A DNA stretch of 64,000 nucleotides from Bifidobacterium aquikefiri (GTDB lineage Bacteria > Actinomycetota > Actinomycetes > Actinomycetales > Bifidobacteriaceae). A program made the position numbers and the translations under genes. The stretch lies in contig NZ_MWXA01000006.1 of the NCBI RefSeq assembly GCF_002259795.1, positions 1 to 64,000 of the forward strand, given 5' to 3'. Numbering within the stretch: the stretch's first letter is position 1; each line of letters opens with the position of its first letter. This document shows positions 1 to 52,963 of this stretch, one piece after another. Under the pieces are notes generated by a model. The model did not search any database. It saw only the letters and a program-made list of their open reading frames with translations, and was not told where the DNA came from.

Positions 1-543
1 TCGCGTGGGCTTACCGGCGTGCGCCTGGTGACCGGCGACCGGTGCGCCGGACTGGTGAACACCGTCAGTGAACTCCTGCCACAGGCCCGCTACCAGCGGT
101 GCATGGTGCACTTCATGCGCAACGTGCTCTCGAAAGTCTCCCCTCGTCACACCCGATGGGCCGGGGACGCGCTCAAGGCCGTGTTCGCGATGGAATCACG
201 CGAATCGGCGTTGGCCAAGGCCGAGCAGGTCGCCACCGAGATGGAGGAGCGGAAACTCAGGGAGGCCGCCAAGTGCCTGCGCGAGGGCATCGACGAGACC
301 ACCACGTACCTGCTCAAGGATTACCCGGTCGAGCATCGCCGGCGCATCCGAACGAACAACATGATCGAACGGTTGAACCGGGAGATCCGCAGGAGAACCC
401 GCGTGGTGGGCGCTTTCCCGGATGGTAGATCGGCATTGATGCTCATCACTGCGAGAATCCGCTACGTCACCGGCAACCAGTGGTCGACCCGCCGCTACCT
501 GGACATGTCCCGACTCCACGACACCATACAGGAAGCGAACTGA
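1..543 (+). CDS. IS256-family (mutator type) transposase, C-terminal part, cut by the window edge
   Basis: The reading frame is open from base 1, so the true start lies outside the window. The fragment has the typical C-terminal half of IS256/mutator transposases: a conserved CMVHFMRN segment, a helical stretch, and the RTNNMIERLNREIRRRTRVV block that holds the last acidic catalytic residue of the DDE site. The ending, with a run like ALMLITARI and a short basic tail, is also usual. It would cut and paste its own element. The right terminal repeat follows at 571-594, so the 3' end of the element looks intact. Whether the missing 5' half is intact cannot be seen. Confidence 0.9.
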   Translation, partial: SRGLTGVRLVTGDRCAGLVNTVSELLPQARYQRCMVHFMRNVLSKVSPRHTRWAGDALKAVFAMESRESALAKAEQVATEMEERKLREAAKCLREGIDETTTYLLKDYPVEHRRRIRTNNMIERLNREIRRRTRVVGAFPDGRSALMLITARIRYVTGNQWSTRRYLDMSRLHDTIQEAN

Positions 544-19483: not shown

Positions 19484-19493
19484 TCGTGTAACC

Positions 19494-20211
19494 GAGTTTC
19501 TCGAGTTTTGTGGCACTTCTGGGCTATTGGCACAGAAGTGTGTGGGGAATCGTTTCCTAGTTCTTGTGGGAGTGGATGTTGCTCCTGTTTTATAATTTTT
19601 ACGCTGGAATAACGGCACGGCACGAAAGTGTGTGAAACTTGCCGTGAGACGTTCTTCCGACTGGGGTTTGTGCTGGTTGATAATCCTGCGTGACCTGGGA
19701 GTCGTGAAATCAACCCGGTACCCGCATTGCGGCACCATCATGCATCGCAACACAACCACAAGAGCAGGAACGACCCAATGTCGATGCCCGCCATCCCAAC
19801 CATCCCAACCATCCCCGCGTCCCTTGTCACCCCGACCGAATCCACATCCCTCGTCACCCTGAGCGAATCCGCCTCTCTTGTCATCTCGAGCGAGCGCAGC
19901 GAGTCGAGAGATCTCATCCTTGCGAGCATCAACAGCGAAGATCCCTCGACTCGCTCCGCTCGCTCGGGATGACAATGGTGTTGTCGTTCATACGACCGAC
20001 TCGCTGCGCTCGCTCGGAATGACGGGAGAGGAGCATGGCATCGACTGGAACGAACTACACGCCGACACACCAGCAGAGACTTAAAACCCACACTCCTGTG
20101 CCTATAGCCCGCAATTCTTGAGCATACAGCGCTGAAATCGTTGATTTGGGAGGGCAGAAAGCCATTCGTGAGCGTTTATACTCACCACTTGCCACAAAAC
20201 TCGAAAATCTC
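19494..20211 (+). repeat. Small inverted-repeat element split by a larger inserted element
   Basis: GAGTTTCTCGAGTTTTGTGG (19494-19513, continuing CA) is the near-reverse complement of the arm at 20189-20211 (core CACAAAACTCGAAAATCTC); about 20 of 23 positions agree. Without the element at 19521-20110 the two arms would be about 80 bases apart, close to the intact relative at 40903-41016. So this looks like a short miniature element that was later interrupted. Between 20111 and 20188 I see no gene. Confidence 0.6.
19521..20110 (+). mobile_element. Non-autonomous element, copy A (inverted ends, zinc-finger remnant, hairpin array)
   Basis: The left end GGGCTATTGGCACAGAAG and the reverse complement of the right end, GGGCTATAGGCACAGGAG, are matching terminal repeats. 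Flanks are GCACTTCT and GCAATTCT, an 8-bp target duplication with one mismatch. Around 19717-19800 the DNA can still code for YPHCGTIMHRNTTTRAG, then TTQCRCPPS, the beginning of a zinc-finger transposase such as IS1249/ISL3 types carry. A long hairpin made of GAGCGAGCGCAGCGAGTC arms lies at 19880-19973. No full gene is present, so mobility would need a transposase elsewhere. Confidence 0.75.
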
Positions 20212-25302: not shown

Positions 25303-25450
25303 GATGTTCAAATATAGCTCGACATGAGGTCAATCGTGTGAATGTTCGACTCTGATTGCACTAGGTGCGGCATTGATCGCTGCTGATGGCGGGCAGGTGA
25401 CTGATTGGTATACAGGTGACTGACTGGTATGCAGAGATTGAAAGCTCGCC

Positions 25451-26109
25451 TATCCCGTCATTCCGAGCGAGCGGGACGAGTCGGTCGTATGGACTTGTCA
25501 ACGCTGTATGCACCACCGTCAGAGTCGGCCGTATGAACGACAACATTATCGTCAGAGTCGGCCGTATGAACGACAACATTATCGTCATCCCGAGCGAGCG
25601 CAGCGAGTCGAGGGATCTTCGCTGTTGATGCTCGCAAGGATGAGATCTCTCGACTCGCTCCGCTCGCTCGAGATGACAAGGAAGGCGGATTCGGTCGAGA
25701 TGACAAGAGAGGCGGATTCGCTCAGGGTGACTAGGGATGTGGATTCGCTCGGGTGACAGGGAAGGTGGAGATTGTGGGGATAACAAGGGATGTGGATTCG
25801 GTCGGGGTGACAAGGGACGCGGGGATGGTTGGGATGGCGGGCATCGACATTGGGTCGTTCCTGCTCTTGTGGTTGTGTTGCGATGCATGGTGGTGCCGCA
25901 ATGCGGGTACCGGGTTGATTTCACGACTCCCAGGTCACGCAGGATTATCAGCCAGCCTAAACCCCAGTCGGGAGAACGTCTCACTGCATGTTTCACATAT
26001 ACTTTCGTGCAGTGCCGTTATACCAGCGTAAAAAATATAAAACAGGAGCAACACCCACTCCCACAAGGGCTAGGAAACGATTCCCCACACACATCTGTGC
26101 CAATAGCCC
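25451..26109 (-). mobile_element. Non-autonomous element, copy B (one end missing)
   Basis: On the minus strand the end at 26109 reads GGGCTATTGGCACAGATG, the same terminus as copy A, followed by the same subterminal and zinc-finger-remnant DNA (YPHCGTTMHRNTTTRAG). The hairpin unit is at 25584-25677. The opposite terminal repeat is not found: similarity stops near 25451, and the bases 25303-25450 hold no gene and no end sequence. A 33-bp tandem duplication (25518-25550, 25551-25583) lies in the array. This copy therefore looks dead by end deletion. The bases 26110-26177 hold nothing recognisable. Confidence 0.75.
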
Positions 26110-45374: not shown

Positions 45375-48300
45375 GCTTCCTTCACTTGACCTTCGGCAGA
45401 AGATTTCCTTGCCCTGCCAGAAGTCCTTGCTGTGGTTGCCGCACTCTTCGATGCGGTTGACGTTCGTCGAGTGGCAGTTTTCCTTGCTGTTGTTTTCTTC
45501 GCGGCTGATGCTGTGGCCGTGGTCTTCCTTGCGGGAGCCTTCCTGCGGGTTCCCTTTGCCTTCGAGCTTCGTCGTTTGCTTGGACCTGCAGCGCGCTTTT
45601 CAGCCAGCAGTGCAAATGCCTGAGCTGGCTCAATTGATTCCGGCGTATATTGCTTGGGCAAGGTTCTGTTCGTCTCGCCATCGGTGATATAAGCGCCGTA
45701 GAAGCCATCCTTTATGGTGACGGCCTTGCCGTTGTCTGGATCTGGGCCAAGCTCACGCAGCGGGGGCTTGGCAGCTCCGCGCCTGCGATTGCCGTACTTG
45801 GGCTGTGCGAATAGCTCTTTCGCCTTGTCAAGATCCACGGTAAAGATTTCGTCTTCGCTGCCGAGCGAACGCGTGTCGCTCTTGCCATCAGGCAGGGATT
45901 TGGTGAGGTACGGGCCATAACGTCCATTGCTGGCCATAATTGTCGACTGGTGAATCTCACCGGTCTTGTCATCGGCTTCTTCGATTTCACCCACCGTACG
46001 AGGCAGTCTCAGCAATCTCAAAGCATCATCGAGAGAAATCGTCTCGGGATCCATGGTTTTAAACAAGGAAGCCATCTTCGGCTTGGATGCGGCAGCTTTC
46101 TTCGTTGATTTTGAACGTGTCGACTTACTCGCAGTCTTGGAAGCGGCCTTTGCCGAGGTCTTCCTGGTTGAGCCGGATGTCTGCTCCGTTTCAACAGCTT
46201 CTGGCAATGTCAGTGCAACATATGGGCCAAACCTTCCCTTGCGCACCTCAACCTTGCCATGAGTCTCTGGATCCTCGCCAAGCTCGCGTGGGCCTCCAGA
46301 ATTCGTTGCGATAAGCTCATGTCCCTTTTCTATGGTCAACTCGTCGGGAGCGACCGTTTCAGGTAACGAGGCTCGTTTCGGATTGCCCTCTTCATCGGTG
46401 TTCACCGTATCTTCAAGATAGGGGCCATAGCGACCGACACGCACTTGCAGCCCATCGCCGATGGCAATGGTGTTGATCGCTCGTGCATCGATATCTCCGA
46501 GCTGTGCCACCTGCTTTTGCAGCCCTTCATGAATCTGCGAGGTTGTCTTTGCCGAATGTTCGCCTGCACCAAAGTAGAAATCAGTGAGCCAGTCCTTGCC
46601 CTTTTCCTTGCCATGGGCAATCATGTCGAGTCCATTTTCCATCTGTGCGGTGAAATGATAGTCAACATACTGTGGGAAATTGCTTTCCAGAAGCCTGATC
46701 ACCGAGAACGCCAGCCATGAAGGAATCAGCGCACGGCCACGCTCATAGACGTAACCTCGATCAATGATCGTAGAGATGATGCTTGCATAGGTTGAAGGGC
46801 GGCCAATCTCCCGAGCCTCCAGGGTCTTGACCAAGGTGGCCTCGGTATAGCGCGCAGGGGGCTGGGTTTCATGACCGTCGGAAGACACATCCTTGGCCTT
46901 CAACACATCGCCGCGATCCAATTGTGGCAGCGCCACATTCGATGATTCCTCGTGATGGCGATCACCCTCAGGTGACTCATGCGTCTTGCCGGCATGGGCA
47001 CGCGATCCGGTTGCCTCTCCAAGCGCCTTCATGAAGCCAAGGAAGTCGATGACTGTTCCAGATGCTTGGAAGTGGGCCTTTCCCTGACTGTGCGTCTCCG
47101 CCTGCATGTGGACGGTTGCCGTGGATCCAGTGGCATCAGCCATCTGCGAGGCCAATGTCCGGCGCCAGATCAACGTATAGAGTTTCAACTGATCAGGGGG
47201 AACCAACGATGCCAATTCATCGGGGGATTTGAAATGAGCCCCTGCGGGACGGATGCACTCGTGGGCTTCCTGTGCGCCAGCAGTTTTGGTGGTGTATTGC
47301 TTCGGCCGTTCAGAAAGATATTCCTTGCCATACCGCTCACGAACGTCGTCGCGGGCAGCTTCGATGGCTTCCTGGGAGAGTGTGACCGAGTCCGTCCTCA
47401 TATAGGTGATGTAGCCGTTTTCGTAAAGGCCCTGAGCTGCTCGCATCGTAGATCTCGAACTCATGGAAAGACGATTGCCCGCAGTCTGCTGCAGGGTTGA
47501 AGTTGTGAAAGGCGGTTGCGGGCGGCGACGATACGGCTTCGTGTCCAGACCGGTAACAATAAAGTCGGCAGGCTTAAGCTCTTCTGCCAGTCTGTTTGCC
47601 AAGGCCTCATCAACAAGCAGTGCATTGTCTTTTTGACAAGCCGGCGTGGGTTTGCCCTGATCATCGAAGTCCTTGGAACCAGCCACACGGCGATTGCCGA
47701 GTTCGACCAGACGTGCCGGGAATGAGGTCTCCTGCGAGTCGGCAGCAATAAGCGTTGCAACAATATCCCAATATGCAGTGCGAACGAAATTCATGCGCTC
47801 CCGCTCGCGCTCCACTATCAATCGCGTGGCCACCGACTGCACACGGCCTGCACTCAGGCCTGGTCCAACCTTGCGCCAAAGCACGGGAGAGAGCTCATAA
47901 CCATAGAGACGATCGAGCACGCGGCGCGTCTCTTGCGCATCGACCATGTTGTCGTCAACATTGCGCGTCTTGTTCAGCGAAGCACGGATTGCATCGCGTG
48001 TAATCTCGTGGAATACCATGCGCTTTACCGGAACCTTGGGCTTCAATGTCTGCACAAGATGCCAGGCGATGGCCTCTCCCTCACGATCCTCATCAGTGGC
48101 GAGATAGAGCTCGTCGGCGGATTTCAAGGCACTTTTCAGCTCGGCGACGGTTTTCTTCTTGTTGCCATCAACGATGTAATAGGGTTTGAAACCGTCATCA
48201 ACATCGACGCCGAACTTGCCAAAATGACTTTTCTGCGCCGAAGGGACCTGAGAAGGTTGGGCGAGATCACGAATATGACCCACTGACGCCATGACGGTGT

Positions 48301-48379
48301 AACCATCGCCAAGATAGCCACCTATCTTCTTGGCCTTGGTCGGCGACTCAACAATTACGAGCTTTCTGCCGGTTGCCAT
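45371..48379 (-). CDS. topA: DNA topoisomerase I
   Basis: Type IA topoisomerase relaxing negative supercoils. The Toprim domain begins MATGRKLVIVESPTKAKK and has LYLATDEDREGEAIAWHLVQ; the active-site tyrosine is in NGYITYMRTDSVTLSQE. C-terminal repeats of the type VRKGRFGPYVALT and SNGRYGPYLTKSL are the actinobacterial replacement for zinc fingers, followed by a Lys/Ala/Thr/Arg-rich tail of about 75 residues. ATG 48379 has AAGGAGATC upstream; the longer in-frame start at 48421 puts this inside the gene. 1002 residues. Confidence 0.97.
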   Translation of the reverse strand: MATGRKLVIVESPTKAKKIGGYLGDGYTVMASVGHIRDLAQPSQVPSAQKSHFGKFGVDVDDGFKPYYIVDGNKKKTVAELKSALKSADELYLATDEDREGEAIAWHLVQTLKPKVPVKRMVFHEITRDAIRASLNKTRNVDDNMVDAQETRRVLDRLYGYELSPVLWRKVGPGLSAGRVQSVATRLIVERERERMNFVRTAYWDIVATLIAADSQETSFPARLVELGNRRVAGSKDFDDQGKPTPACQKDNALLVDEALANRLAEELKPADFIVTGLDTKPYRRRPQPPFTTSTLQQTAGNRLSMSSRSTMRAAQGLYENGYITYMRTDSVTLSQEAIEAARDDVRERYGKEYLSERPKQYTTKTAGAQEAHECIRPAGAHFKSPDELASLVPPDQLKLYTLIWRRTLASQMADATGSTATVHMQAETHSQGKAHFQASGTVIDFLGFMKALGEATGSRAHAGKTHESPEGDRHHEESSNVALPQLDRGDVLKAKDVSSDGHETQPPARYTEATLVKTLEAREIGRPSTYASIISTIIDRGYVYERGRALIPSWLAFSVIRLLESNFPQYVDYHFTAQMENGLDMIAHGKEKGKDWLTDFYFGAGEHSAKTTSQIHEGLQKQVAQLGDIDARAINTIAIGDGLQVRVGRYGPYLEDTVNTDEEGNPKRASLPETVAPDELTIEKGHELIATNSGGPRELGEDPETHGKVEVRKGRFGPYVALTLPEAVETEQTSGSTRKTSAKAASKTASKSTRSKSTKKAAASKPKMASLFKTMDPETISLDDALRLLRLPRTVGEIEEADDKTGEIHQSTIMASNGRYGPYLTKSLPDGKSDTRSLGSEDEIFTVDLDKAKELFAQPKYGNRRRGAAKPPLRELGPDPDNGKAVTIKDGFYGAYITDGETNRTLPKQYTPESIEPAQAFALLAEKRAAGPSKRRSSKAKGTRRKAPARKTTATASAAKKTTARKTATRRTSTASKSAATTARTSGRARKSSAEGQVKEA

Positions 48380-48480
48380 CTTGATCTCCTTACCATGTTC
48401 AACGCACGCAATCATACTCATAAGGGAAACACATCAGGCAACAGGCCCTTGCATTTGGCTGTGTCGAGCATAACCAACGT

Positions 48481-49584
48481 TCAATTATCGCGCTCTTCCG
48501 CTGGCTTCGGAGGCTCTGGTGGCGCGCCTATCAGACCCAGCTTGCTCAGCGGGGATGCCGTGAGCTGCCGGAGTGCCGCGACCATTCCGAAAGTCACTAA
48601 CGATACTCCCAGCATAAGCGCAAACGCAGCGGTACATGCACCGGAGCGCGCCCATTGAGCACCCAGATCGAGACCTGGCTCAATCTGCCAATACACGTAT
48701 GCACCATAGAGAACAGCAACAATGCCAGCTGTGATCATCACCGTTGCAACGATTTGAACGCTTGCCGAAGACATTCGCGTTCCTGGCTCATCCATACCAC
48801 TGCTTCGGGTGAAAGCAAGCATGATGCATGCCAGACCGGCTATGATCAGCAGCGACATAAGTGGATCAGAGGGACGATGCCACTGTGCCTCAACCACAGA
48901 GAGCGCCACCATCAGAGTGAATGCCCAACCGACAAAGGCCGCAACGGCACGCCATACGCGCGGAACTGCGCATACAAGAACCACCGCACCGGCCGCCGCC
49001 ATCAGGGTGTGTCCCGATGGCGCAGAATTCGATGTATACGATGCTACATTCACAAGGAACGGCCTAGGCAATACACGCTTGACGGTTGCAGCAACGGCGA
49101 AGCTGACGACTCCAAAGACTGCGAGCTGAATCAGGAGCGCCCAGCGTCTTCGCACGATAACGACTGCAATCGCAATCAGAGCGAATACTGCAACGATGGC
49201 AACATCGATATAGGTGTGAACGAAAATCTTGAGCACAGCGATGAACCATGTTGGCAGAGCAGCTGAGAAGTAGCTCCATACCATGTCGTCGTATTCCTGG
49301 CCTGTTACCGTCCGCACAGCAAACAGCCACAAGACGGCACCGAGCAACAGCATCGCAATGCCCAAGCCTGCACACATTGCGATACTTGCTTTGCGAGGCC
49401 TGACGGTCAGCGGATCCGTCGTAACCATGTCAAAGGAAAGTTTGGCCTGTTCCGGATTCTTCTCAATCTGATCATCGCCAACGCTTTCTCCAAGGGAATC
49501 GGCTGCTCGCTCAAGATCTGAACTGCCCTGAACACTGGAGTTAGGCGTATCGTCTGAATGTTCTTTGAATTCACTCATAACCAT
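48481..49584 (-). CDS. PAP2-family membrane phosphatase
   Basis: The three PAP2 motifs are present: KRVLPRPFLV, PSGHTLMAAAG and VVEAQWHRPSDPLMSL. After a polar N-terminal part of about 65 residues there are about seven membrane helices, the last two beyond the phosphatase core. Substrates of this family include undecaprenyl pyrophosphate and phosphatidic acid. Start is ATG 49584 or 49578 (MVMSEFKEH); only weak ribosome sites are seen. The open frame continues upstream to 49707, but that part is the end of the inserted repeat element, 33 bases before the start, so it is excluded. Confidence 0.9.
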   Translation of the reverse strand: MVMSEFKEHSDDTPNSSVQGSSDLERAADSLGESVGDDQIEKNPEQAKLSFDMVTTDPLTVRPRKASIAMCAGLGIAMLLLGAVLWLFAVRTVTGQEYDDMVWSYFSAALPTWFIAVLKIFVHTYIDVAIVAVFALIAIAVVIVRRRWALLIQLAVFGVVSFAVAATVKRVLPRPFLVNVASYTSNSAPSGHTLMAAAGAVVLVCAVPRVWRAVAAFVGWAFTLMVALSVVEAQWHRPSDPLMSLLIIAGLACIMLAFTRSSGMDEPGTRMSSASVQIVATVMITAGIVAVLYGAYVYWQIEPGLDLGAQWARSGACTAAFALMLGVSLVTFGMVAALRQLTASPLSKLGLIGAPPEPPKPAEERDN

Positions 49585-49616
49585 GACTCTAAGGGTAGGG
49601 CTATATGTGCGAACAG

Positions 49617-50169
49617 GGGTTATAGGCACAGAGGTGTGGGTTTTAGTCTTCGCTGGCGTGCTGGCGTGTAATTCGTTCCATTCGATGTCATGCTCCTCTC
49701 CCGTCATCCCGAGCGAGCGCAGCGAGTCGGTGGTATGGACTCGTCAAAGCTATATGTACCATCGTCAGAGTCGGCCGTATGAACGACAACACCATCGTCA
49801 TCCCGAGCGAGCGCAGCGAGTCGGTGGTATGAACGACAACACCATTGTCATTCCGAGCGAGCGTAGCGAGTCGAGGGATCTTGGCTGTTGATGCTCGCAA
49901 GGGTGAGATCTCTCGACTCGCTGCGCTCGCTCGAGATGACAATGGGTCGGGGCGACGAGGGCTGTGGATTCGGTCGGAGTGACAAGGGAGGTGGGGATGG
50001 CGGGCATCGACATTGGGTCGTTCCTGCTCTCGTGGTTGTGTTGCGATGCATGATGGTGCCGCAATACGGGCACAAGGTTGCGTTCATGCATTCCAAGTCA
50101 AACAGGAGCAACACCCACTCCCACAAGAGCTAGGAGACAATTCTCCACACACATCTGCGCCTATAACCC
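49617..50169 (-). mobile_element. Non-autonomous element, copy C (complete, with target duplication)
   Basis: Ends read GGGTTATAGGCACAGAGG (plus strand from 49617) and, on the minus strand from 50169, GGGTTATAGGCGCAGATG. The flanks are CGAACAG at 49610-49616 and CGAACAG at 50170-50176, a direct target duplication of 7-8 bp. From ATG 50087 (minus) the DNA reads MNATLCPYCGTIMHRNTTT, then RAGTTQCRCPPS, the opening of a zinc-finger transposase, then breaks into repeat DNA. Hairpin arms GAGCGAGCGCAGCGAGTC recur, with the main one at 49847-49940. It sits between the PAP2 start and the SRP RNA 3' end. Confidence 0.85.
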
Positions 50170-50195
50170 CGAACAGGGCTGAATTAGAATATGAA

Positions 50196-50280
50196 AACTC
50201 CCACGCACCCGTCAGAGGCCACTTACCCTTGCTGCATTCCTGCCCTGGGGGGATTGGGTGACATAACGCCACGTGGGAGC
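50196..50280 (-). ncRNA. ffs: SRP RNA (small bacterial type)
   Basis: On the minus strand the sequence has the universally conserved domain IV: CAGGGCAGGAATGCAGCAAG followed by GGTAAGTGGCC. The outer stem is closed by CTCCCACG (50279-50272) with CGTGGGAG (50206-50199). TTTTC follows the stem, as in a terminator. Length is about 85 bases. This RNA binds the Ffh protein, encoded at 34549-36174. A strong promoter match lies just upstream. Confidence 0.92.
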
Positions 50281-50287
50281 ACAAAAT

Positions 50288-50316
50288 ATCCTACCCGATT
50301 GAGTGGATTTTACCAA
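50288..50316 (-). promoter_or_regulatory. Promoter of the SRP RNA gene
   Basis: On the minus strand TTGGTA (50316-50311), a 17-base spacer and TAGGAT (50293-50288) are followed by seven bases to a G at 50280, the start of the RNA. Spacing and distance are those of a sigma-70-type promoter. Confidence 0.8.
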
Positions 50317-50473
50317 GAGAGGCTCGTGAGTCCTTCTCGCACCGGGACATACAAGGATTCGATATCACGGCTACCATATGAGAGGAGCCATGTTGAGCCG
50401 ACTTCCGGAATGCATCATGGCCGGTACGACAAGAAGACATGCAAGTAATATTTCAGCAACGGAAAGGGAAGTG

Positions 50474-51649
50474 ATGAGCGAACAGGCTGATCTCATCATC
50501 GTTGGCGCGGGACTCTTCGGATTGACCATTGCGCAGCAGGCGGTGGAGCACAATGGTGCGAAGGTTGAGATAATTGAGGCACGCGGCAATATCGGTGGCA
50601 ATGCATACAGCTATATGGACAAGCAGACCGGTGCCGAAATACACAAGTATGGAGCTCATCTCTTCCACACTTCGAATCCACGCGTGTGGGAGTATGTCAA
50701 TCGTTTCACGAGCTTCACGCACTATGTTCATCATGTGTATACGACTCATAACGGCGAAGTCTTCCCCATGCCAATCAATCTTGGCACCATCAATCAGTTC
50801 TTCCATGCGAGTTATTCGCCGGAAGAAGCCAAGCGGCTCATTGCCGAGCAGGCGGGAGAACTGGCCGGAAGTACACCGAACAATCTGAACGATCAGGGCA
50901 TCAGCCTTATCGGCCGACCGCTGTACGAGGCATTCATCAAGCATTACACGGCAAAGCAGTGGCAGATGGATCCCAGTACTCTTCCCGCTTCAATCATTCG
51001 AAGGCTCCCCGTCCGATTCAACTACAACAATCGCTATTTCAAAGACACATGGGAAGGCCTGCCAGTCGATGGATATACCGCCTGGTTCGAGCGTATGATT
51101 GATGATCCGCGCATTCACGTCACCCTTTCAACCGACTTCTTCGATACGAGTCAGCCACTCAACCGTGACGCGCTCGTTGGCAAGGTGCCGATTGTGTATA
51201 CGGGGCCAGTAGATAAATACTTCAACTATGAGCTCGGGGATCTGCAATGGAAGACCGTCGATTTCAAGGAGAAGCGCTACGACGAGGATGACCATCTCGG
51301 ATGCCCGGTCATGAACTATGCTGATGAGGATGTGCCATTCACCCGTGCCATCGAATTCAAGAATTTCAATCCAGAGCGATACGAGCGGCAGAATCACGAG
51401 CACACGGTTGTCTGGGAGGAATACTCCCGCTCAGCCTCGCGCAATGACGAGCCATATTACCCGGTGAGCACTGCCGCAGACAAGCAGCTCTATGCTCAAT
51501 ACAAAGAGAAGGTAGCTGCCGAGCCACAGGTTATTTTCGGTGGAAGGCTCGGAACCTATGCATATTACGACATGCATCAGGTGATAGACAAGGCTCTGGA
51601 TTCATTTGAAAACGAGGTTCAGCCACTTCTCAAGAATCTCAAGGACTGA
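50474..51649 (+). CDS. glf: UDP-galactopyranose mutase
   Basis: Flavoenzyme converting UDP-galactopyranose to UDP-galactofuranose for cell-surface polysaccharides. FAD-binding start: DLIIVGAGLFGLTIAQQAVE. Other matches are GGNAYSYMDKQTGAEIHKYG, HLFHTSNPRVWEYVNRFT, FIKHYTAKQWQMDPSTLP, the RLPVRFNYNNRYF active-site segment and YPVSTAADKQLYAQY. The length, 391 residues, is normal. The ATG at 50474 has AAAGGGAAG upstream; earlier in-frame ATG codons lie before this site. About 190 bases between the SRP RNA promoter and the start hold no clear gene. Confidence 0.96.
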   Translation: MSEQADLIIVGAGLFGLTIAQQAVEHNGAKVEIIEARGNIGGNAYSYMDKQTGAEIHKYGAHLFHTSNPRVWEYVNRFTSFTHYVHHVYTTHNGEVFPMPINLGTINQFFHASYSPEEAKRLIAEQAGELAGSTPNNLNDQGISLIGRPLYEAFIKHYTAKQWQMDPSTLPASIIRRLPVRFNYNNRYFKDTWEGLPVDGYTAWFERMIDDPRIHVTLSTDFFDTSQPLNRDALVGKVPIVYTGPVDKYFNYELGDLQWKTVDFKEKRYDEDDHLGCPVMNYADEDVPFTRAIEFKNFNPERYERQNHEHTVVWEEYSRSASRNDEPYYPVSTAADKQLYAQYKEKVAAEPQVIFGGRLGTYAYYDMHQVIDKALDSFENEVQPLLKNLKD

Positions 51650-51651
51650 TT

Positions 51652-51674
51652 GCCACAAAACTCGAAATCTCGAT
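51652..51674 (+). repeat. Solo arm of the small inverted-repeat family
   Basis: TTGCCACAAAACTCGAAATC followed by TCG lies directly after the glf stop. It matches the right arms at 20189 and 40997. A partner arm is not found nearby, so this is a one-sided copy. Confidence 0.6.
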
Positions 51675-51709
51675 GGCAAGAGCGGAGAATCTCATGCACG
51701 CGAAGTAAG

Positions 51710-51754
51710 AAACTCTTGGTTGACACAGCTTTTAGCCGCGCCCACCAAGAGTTT
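51710..51754. terminator. Hairpin between convergent glf and inositol-phosphate synthase genes
   Basis: AAACTCTTGGT (51710-51720) and ACCAAGAGTTT (51744-51754) are perfect 11-bp arms with a 23-base loop and short T/A tracts at both feet. It is likely a two-way terminator. Confidence 0.65.
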
Positions 51755-51820
51755 TATGTCCAACTGTCAGCAACCAGTTCGTGCGAGCGCTTCACTTGAG
51801 TGCTTCACATCGAAGCCAGT

Positions 51821-52963
51821 TCAGGCGTTCCACACGTCCTTGCCCGCGGCCTTTGCGGCTGCTGCATCAGCATCGAGTGTATCCTGAGTGGATTCAACGG
51901 AACCCGCAATGAATTCCTCAACCAGACGACGTGCTTCATTGTCTTCGTGCTGAACTGCAGGAGACTTCATGAAGTATGAGCTTGGAGCCAGGATTGGGCC
52001 GGCAAGACCGCGGTCAAGAGCAATCTTTGCCGCGCGGATTGCATCAATGACGATGCCTGCTGAATTTGGAGAATCCCATACGGTGAGCTTGTATTCAAGT
52101 TCGAGCGGAACGTTGCCGAAGGTGGTGCCCTCCAAGCGGACGAATGCGAGCTTGCGATCGTCGAGCCATGCGACATAGTCCGAAGGTCCAATATGAACGT
52201 TGCGGTCTTCCATGTCGTGAGGAACGATTGAAGTCACTGCACGTGTCTTCGAGATCTTCTTGGACTCGAGACGCGTACGCTGCAGCATGTTCATGAAGTC
52301 CATGTTGCCACCAACATTGAGCTGGTAGGTGCGGTCGAGGCGAACGCCACGATCCTCGAACAGGCGAGCCATGACACGGTGCGTGATGGTGGCTCCGACC
52401 TGAGACTTGATATCGTCGCCGACGATGGGGACGCCGGCATCCTTGAACTTTTGAGCCCATTCGGGATCCGAAGCGATGAATACCGGAAGGCAGTTGACGA
52501 ATGCGCAGCCTGCATCCATGGCAGCCTGAGCATAGCCCTTGTCGGCCTGCTCGGAGCCGACCGGCAGGTAGCTGACGAGAATATCGACGTGGCGTTCCTT
52601 CAACACGCTGGCAACGTCAACCGGTTCTGCATCTGATTCCTTGATCATCTGCTGGTAATACTCACCGAGACCGTCTCCTGTTGGACCGCGCTGAACCTCA
52701 ACGCCAAGATCAGGAACATCCTCGAACTTGTAGGTGTTGTTTTGAGAAGCGTAGATTGCCTTGCTCAAGTCCAAACCAACCTTCGCAGCATCCACATCGA
52801 ATGCAGCTACAAACTCGATATCGCGGACGCGATAGCCACCGAAGACCGTGTGCATCAAGCCTGGCACATGTTCGTCGTCATCAACATCCTTGTAGAAGGA
52901 AACACCTTGCACCAGCGACGAGGCACAATTGCCTACGCCAGCTATGGCAACACGAATTGTCAT
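51821..52963 (-). CDS. ino1: Inositol-3-phosphate synthase
   Basis: NAD-dependent enzyme converting glucose 6-phosphate to myo-inositol 3-phosphate, used in actinobacteria for phosphatidylinositol and mycothiol-like compounds. The 380-residue protein begins [20 protein letters not shown] with the NAD fold, then has [60 protein letters not shown] and [20 protein letters not shown], all characteristic of the actinobacterial Ino1 type. ATG 52963 has GAGGAG about seven bases upstream. It is divergent from the PBP gene with 200 bases between. Confidence 0.95.

Follow-up and report, generated by a model that had tools for sequence, protein, structure and literature searches.

What kind of element fills the 553 bp between an SRP RNA gene and a PAP2-family gene in this Bifidobacterium aquikefiri contig, and how did transposase codons and hairpins come to share it? 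The window, meaning the whole 64,000-nucleotide stretch that was analysed, carries at 49617-50169 a segment with inverted ends, a 7-base flanking CGAACAG duplication, and internal hairpins. This segment very probably arose by internal deletion from an insertion sequence of the IS1249 type (IS256 family) and is a MITE-like, non-autonomous derivative.

Organisation of the element and its surroundings

The element, its parts and its two further copies in the window are as follows.

49617 to 50169, no strand: whole non-autonomous element, 553 bp (inverted ends, flanking duplication, empty site in genome G018, contiguous flanks in genome G015)
49617 to 49638, plus: left terminal inverted repeat, on the transposase 3' side (23-nt arms, 91%)
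50148 to 50169, minus: right terminal inverted repeat, upstream of the transposase start (21/24 matches to the left end)
49610 to 49616, plus: left copy of the target duplication, CGAACAG (single related CGAGCAT at the G018 empty site)
50170 to 50176, plus: right copy of the target duplication, CGAACAG (flanking sequence, G018 empty site)
49995 to 50087, minus: transposase N-terminus remnant, a zinc ribbon of 31 codons (NF033544 transpos_IS1249; pN/pS 0.98)
49654 to 49687, minus: transposase C-terminus remnant, ...IEWNELH..., compare GINWNEFH in full-length enzymes (similarity to insertion sequence L082)
49847 to 49940, no strand: complete palindrome GTCAT...ATGAC (fold; same family occurs outside the element)
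49703 to 49867, plus: partial palindrome arms in tandem, units of about 50 nt (direct repeats)
19521 to 20110, minus: second window copy, W19521 (8-bp target GCAATTCT, single at the G015 empty site)
25449 to 26109, plus: third window copy, W25449, without a left end (absent from the same site in G018; region rearranged in G015)

The inverted repeats claimed in the original prediction were recovered as arms at 49616-49638 and 50148-50170, 23 nt long and 91% complementary, with the two ends matching each other at 21 of 24 positions. The end motif, allowing at most two mismatches, occurs five times in the window against 0.15 expected, a count reached by none of 100 shuffles; two occurrences are the ends of this copy, and three derive from the copies at 19521-20110 and 25449-26109. 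The GGG(T/C)TATAGG stretch of the left repeat is common to full-length elements. CGAACAG was likewise found on both flanks, at 49610-49616 and 50170-50176, and the minus-strand frame from 50087, read beforehand as a zinc-ribbon start, encodes MNATLCPYCGTIMHRNTTTRAGTTQCRC. The described arrays of GAGCGAGCGCAGCGAGTC are present as one complete palindrome plus partial arms. The palindrome folds as DNA at -37.5 kcal/mol, compared with a shuffle mean of -16.7, and none of 200 shuffles was as stable. Besides it, the copy contains 50-nt direct repeats, with 90% identity between 49768-49817 and 49818-49867 and 60% for 49674-49723.

Across 48000-52000, the sole Rfam match at gathering score is the SRP RNA at 50189-50285 on the minus strand, placing the element between this gene and the minus-strand PAP2-family gene. 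The likely PAP2 start at 49578, inferred from conservation with G018 and G015, lies about 38 nt from the element, and the C-terminal transposase remnant happens to be in frame with that gene (ORF 48481-49707). A terminator or promoter role was rejected: 49400-50400 contains one site of each kind, shuffles contain 0.7 and 0.6, and both sites lie outside the element. As a separate observation in raw counts, stable RNA genes are closely followed on their 3' side by an element copy or an end-bearing fragment in eight cases, one beside the SRP RNA (window 50169-50189) and seven beside tRNAs (L031, L034, L044, L050, L172, L175, L192). A scan of 42 loci detected tRNAs in 8; the one remaining, L187, has a bare palindrome on the 5' side.

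Parent insertion sequence and the internal deletion

The zinc-ribbon codons had been attributed to an IS1249/ISL3-type transposase. Three query peptides searched against 18,950 NCBIfam models gave the IS1249 transposase model NF033544 as top match for two and second match for the third, with E-values of 4.8e-4 when the query was a consensus-like peptide, 2.7e-3 with 45 residues of the window copy, and 0.017 with its whole 92-residue ORF. These scores fall far below the 300-bit cut-off because only about 26 of 382 positions remain. Pfam matches of these codons all stayed below threshold and included no transposase. The IS1249 half of the attribution therefore holds through the NF033544 match, while an ISL3 origin was set aside, no ISL3 model appearing among the listed NCBIfam or Pfam matches. 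The IS1249 type (NCBIfam NF033544) is placed in the IS256 family. This placement agrees with PMC8304765, which reports IS1249 from Corynebacterium and also from Bifidobacterium thermophilum.

The original prediction overlooked C-terminal transposase codons kept at the other end of the element, which encode ...GIDWNELHAST..., where full-length enzymes have GINWNEFHTTT (L051, L082) or AINWNEFHTPV (L052) at the C-terminus. In the window copy, 49654-49687 is 82% identical to L082 positions 1267-1300 over 34 nt, with an E-value of 1.5e-5 that refers to a search against the 1.4-kb L082 sequence alone. Retained in the element are the 5' leader with the initial ~31 codons, the final ~17 codons, and the two ends.

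IS1249 model matches occur in 13 of 27 genus genomes, the window's own included, and five are above the cut-off. Ends of the form GG(G/C)(C/T)TATAGG, some one-sided, were seen at L052, L053, L057, L058, L061, L081, L082, L084, L092 and L093, but not, by pattern, at L051 (a contig edge), L055, L056, L059, L062, L083, L085 or L087. A profile scan gave 21 named loci with transposase genes, 20 from Bifidobacterium and one from Arthrobacter; an GGGTTATAGG-like end stands at the expected place by pattern in 19 of them (at L103 on one side only), while L104 has none and L105 a diverged one visible only by eye. Among 13 long relatives in which both ends are present, four (L099, L101 outer and nested, L106) lie between perfect 8-bp duplications and nine show none. 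The main-type end pattern was absent from a contig set of 84,980 species, from which the own and very near genomes were possibly left out. The full-length element expected to share these ends was found in part, as related insertion sequences with matching ends, whereas exact ends joined to an intact transposase were not. The suggestion that the ends might match no transposase-coding element fails through the similar ends of L082 and others, with the reserve that no exact-end autonomous element was found. Several IS1249-type transposases, at L082 (genome G009) and at G001 and G024 loci, read in two pieces meeting near the middle, L082 using two frames; this may reflect either decay or a regulated frameshift.

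Comparison with the near-complete L082 insertion sequence of the related genome G009 defines the deletion. The divergent copy L049 matches L082 at 83% of 246 nt (positions 5-247) and, in its second arm, at 81% of 86 nt (positions 1265-1350). It lacks L082 positions 248-1264, a total of 1,017 bases, in whose place stands ~94 nt of GTCAT...ATGAC palindrome DNA. In all five main-type copies tried, of 14, the C-terminal match starts at 1265-1267, and this common 3' junction indicates that main type and L049 subfamilies probably share one founding deletion. A decayed parent-type remnant, L199, persists in the window's genome and matches L082 at 1-124, 220-258 and 389-463. Together with the NF033544 match, the L082-type ends and the empty sites described below, these comparisons bear out the prediction of a deletion product in which the two ends and roughly 30 initial codons survive and hairpins were added.

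The retained transposase codons look as though they evolve neutrally. Among 16 copies examined for the N-terminal part, 14 entered the substitution analysis, L032 and L040 being dropped for poor ungapped match, giving pN of 0.119, pS of 0.121, and pN/pS of 0.98; differences from the consensus at codon positions 1, 2 and 3 number 26, 42 and 33. That the zinc-ribbon ORF encodes a functional small protein, for instance a transposition repressor, and is the reason the element is kept would agree with an N-terminal segment whose PxCG motif is still readable in most of the 16 copies. Both sets of values above nevertheless match neutral rates, five of the 16 copies (W19521, W25449, L038, L041, L045) no longer have the initial cysteine of CPxCG, and a frameshift lies in or just before the segment in L032, L036, L037 and L040, making such a function extremely improbable. 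Most likely, the zinc-ribbon peptide and the hairpins are passengers.

Copies, target sites and spread

A search of the whole genome (2.41 Mb, 18 contigs, 99.7% complete), proposed with the original prediction, returned about 21 copies, smaller fragments excluded. Fourteen keep both ends (W49617, W19521, L031, L032, L033, L034, L036, L037/L039, L038, L040, L043, L044, L045, L047) and seven are truncated or divergent (W25449, L035, L041, L042, L046, L048, L049). The two-ended copies measure 346-711 bp, with pairwise identities of 0.751-0.978 (median 0.868) and ends agreeing ungapped at 13-21 of 24 positions; the right end of L044 resembles the L082 type. The ends of contigs C12 and C13 share a single copy, L037/L039, and their exact overlap of 537 nt, with flanks agreeing at 7/8, suggests that these contigs are probably neighbours. 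Among 27 genus genomes, full-length element matches are confined to the window's own; G018 holds short end-like matches, the element being otherwise not found in G015 and G018. PLSDB gave no plasmid match to the element or its flank. No ORF of at least 110 aa spans any of 25 listed places (L037 and L039 being one copy, three being small fragments, and some borders approximate), such ORFs entering the element at six; the short L172 stretch is without one.

Flanking 8-mers agree at 6/8 or better in 8 of the 14 two-ended copies (two at 8, five at 7, one at 6), while mismatched left/right pairings reach that level in 1 of 182 cases and none of 20,000 permutations attains the summed score. The 7-base duplication of the window copy lies in a shifted register and so falls outside the 8-mer scoring; counting it, target duplication is present in 9 of 14 two-ended copies and absent from five.

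Empty sites, sought as a check proposed with the original prediction, were found at four of five loci tested, in the related genomes G018 and/or G015. Over 1.5 kb neighbouring the window copy, G018 is 87% and G015 83% identical, and the flanks of the copy are contiguous in both. G018 has a single CGAGCAT in place of the doubled CGAACAG, and in G015 the target segment itself is missing. At the W19521 site, G015 is empty and carries GCAATTCT once, a target of exactly 8 bp; G018 also lacks the copy, its junction being diverged. L038 is absent from both genomes between conserved flanks, with junctions too diverged to read the target. W25449 is similarly absent from G018 between conserved flanks, its junction too diverged to read the target, and the G015 region is rearranged. 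L034 was dropped as a clean empty site, its region being rearranged. Fixation at every orthologous site with no other copies, the pattern that would have contradicted the prediction, is excluded by these empty sites and by the roughly 21 copies.

Transposases of the IS256 type recognise the ends of their elements and attach these ends at new sites; defective copies can also serve in trans as substrates for a related enzyme. The history proposed for the family would begin with one founding deletion, in which ~1 kb was lost from the middle of the transposase gene and a palindrome came to stand at the deletion point. A full-length relative in the same cell would then have supplied transposase in trans, recognising the ends and moving the copies. 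Its source would later have decayed, leaving copies that now merely erode and rearrange. Spread by such trans-mobilisation is most likely, judging from copy number, duplications, and empty sites.

Continuing mobility, powered by a transposase of the same cell that is distant or missing from the assembly, would be in keeping with the 0.978 identity of the closest copy pair, with flanks matching at 7-8/8 in 7 of 14 copies, and with an assembly in 18 contigs that has transposase fragments at contig starts. It seems unlikely, since the window's genome, estimated as 99.7% complete, yields against the IS1249 model two element remnants, six weak IS256-type matches, and nothing more, with no intact IS1249-type transposase across its 18 contigs. 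Scores of the contig-start fragments are weak, 2.3e-7 being the best E-value, and the fragments seem to be of a different IS256-type group. As the genome yielded no intact enzyme, the family has probably become stranded. The weak matches lie at window 1-543, at the starts of C1, C2, C11 and C13, and at C4:3474-3929; as five of these six are at contig starts, another repeated insertion sequence seems to be responsible for breaks in the assembly.

Palindrome cargo and relation to known elements

GTCAT...ATGAC palindromes with variable loops also occur outside the element, in its own genome and in G015 and G018. The fetched loci contain 32 complete palindromes, 20 of them in element loci, where one copy is counted on two contigs, and the other 12 outside such loci, two of these 12 in G015 or G018; counts depend on the pattern, with 10 obtained by the first and 32 by a looser one. 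A plus-strand palindrome match is absent from 3 of 20 stretches. Same-family palindromes outside the element, taken with the failure to find the element in G015 and G018, suggest that the founder probably captured a resident palindrome. Rfam matches of the palindrome to mir-969 and mir-750 were below gathering score and taken as chance.

The 12 of 32 palindromes lying away from the main copies, G015 and G018 included, could also mean that the palindrome is itself the mobile or selected REP-like unit, insertion-sequence ends being merely where many palindromes sit. This is very improbable for these copies, as duplications and empty-site boundaries fall at the GGGTTATAGG ends rather than at the palindrome, and the arms are homologous to an insertion sequence over up to 246 nt. 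Palindromes driven by RAYT, or a RAYT-type REP element, were ruled out by the absent Y1 transposase: the genome has no PF01797 match at E 0.001, where the control was positive in 5 of 14 genomes. Like REP and REPIN palindromes, those of the element are extragenic, highly structured, and repeated in partial and complete units; unlike them, they are housed inside a transposable element in a genome without Y1 transposase.

A broader reading, in which IS1249-type ends serve as a vehicle capturing and spreading host palindromes in a minimal end-palindrome-end form, with a 3' preference at tRNA and SRP RNA genes, appears quite doubtful, although sequences at L172, L175, L192 and L050 suggest very short end-palindrome-end units. 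If true, that preference would leave stable RNA genes with strong hairpins downstream.

The internal-deletion derivative preferred here resembles IS1249 and its relatives in the N-terminal zinc ribbon, the C-terminal motif, the GGG(T/C)TATAGG termini, and the 8-bp target duplication, a likeness drawn through the NF033544 model and full-length relatives rather than an IS1249 reference sequence. It differs from IS1249 in having ~1 kb of its transposase gene replaced by palindromes and in lacking self-movement. IS256-family elements make 8 or 9 bp repeats, according to PMC3189936; here agreement is at least 6/8 in 8 of 14 copies, with 7 bp at the window copy, and the N-terminal zinc ribbon is homologous to the IS1249 family model. 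Because the middle of the transposase gene and an intact DDE transposase are absent, the element is placed as a derivative of the IS256 family, not a member.

Bacterial MITEs such as MITEPsy1, MITECca01 and MITEPye1 offer comparison systems (PMC3189936, PMC9769881, PMC11578231). The element shares with them, as described there, inverted ends, target duplications (9 of 14 copies), the lack of its own transposase, several to many dispersed copies, here with empty sites, and insertion-sequence ends, which in this case are similar, not exactly identical, to those of full-length insertion sequences. Unlike those MITEs, it still has pieces of coding sequence at either end, contains palindromes of a family found outside the element as well, and measures 346-711 bp where they are generally under 300, a length that makes it MITE-like and not a strict MITE. 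The parents of two of them differ as well, MITECca01 being assigned to ISCca4 and MITEPye1 to the IS1182 family (PMC9769881, PMC11578231). Among the papers listed by searches of open-access full text, none reported a Bifidobacterium or IS1249-derived MITE in its title or abstract, and earlier reports may exist.

The locus offers a well-traced passage from a bacterial insertion sequence to a non-autonomous repeat family, in which the parent type, the deletion boundaries, a probable founder common to two subfamilies, the empty sites, and a decayed parent remnant can be followed, with a resident palindrome family probably captured as cargo. In this genome, the element family is behind some 21 repeats and one or more breaks of the assembly.

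Two minor observations concern individual copies. At L044 2082-2175, the palindrome has its loop in the opposite orientation to that of other copies, as though recombination had taken place between the arms. A separate repeat, GAGTTTTGCGGCAAT... and its inverse, occurs at ~19490-19520 and 51649-51697 and in related genomes, and W19521 sits within one of its occurrences.
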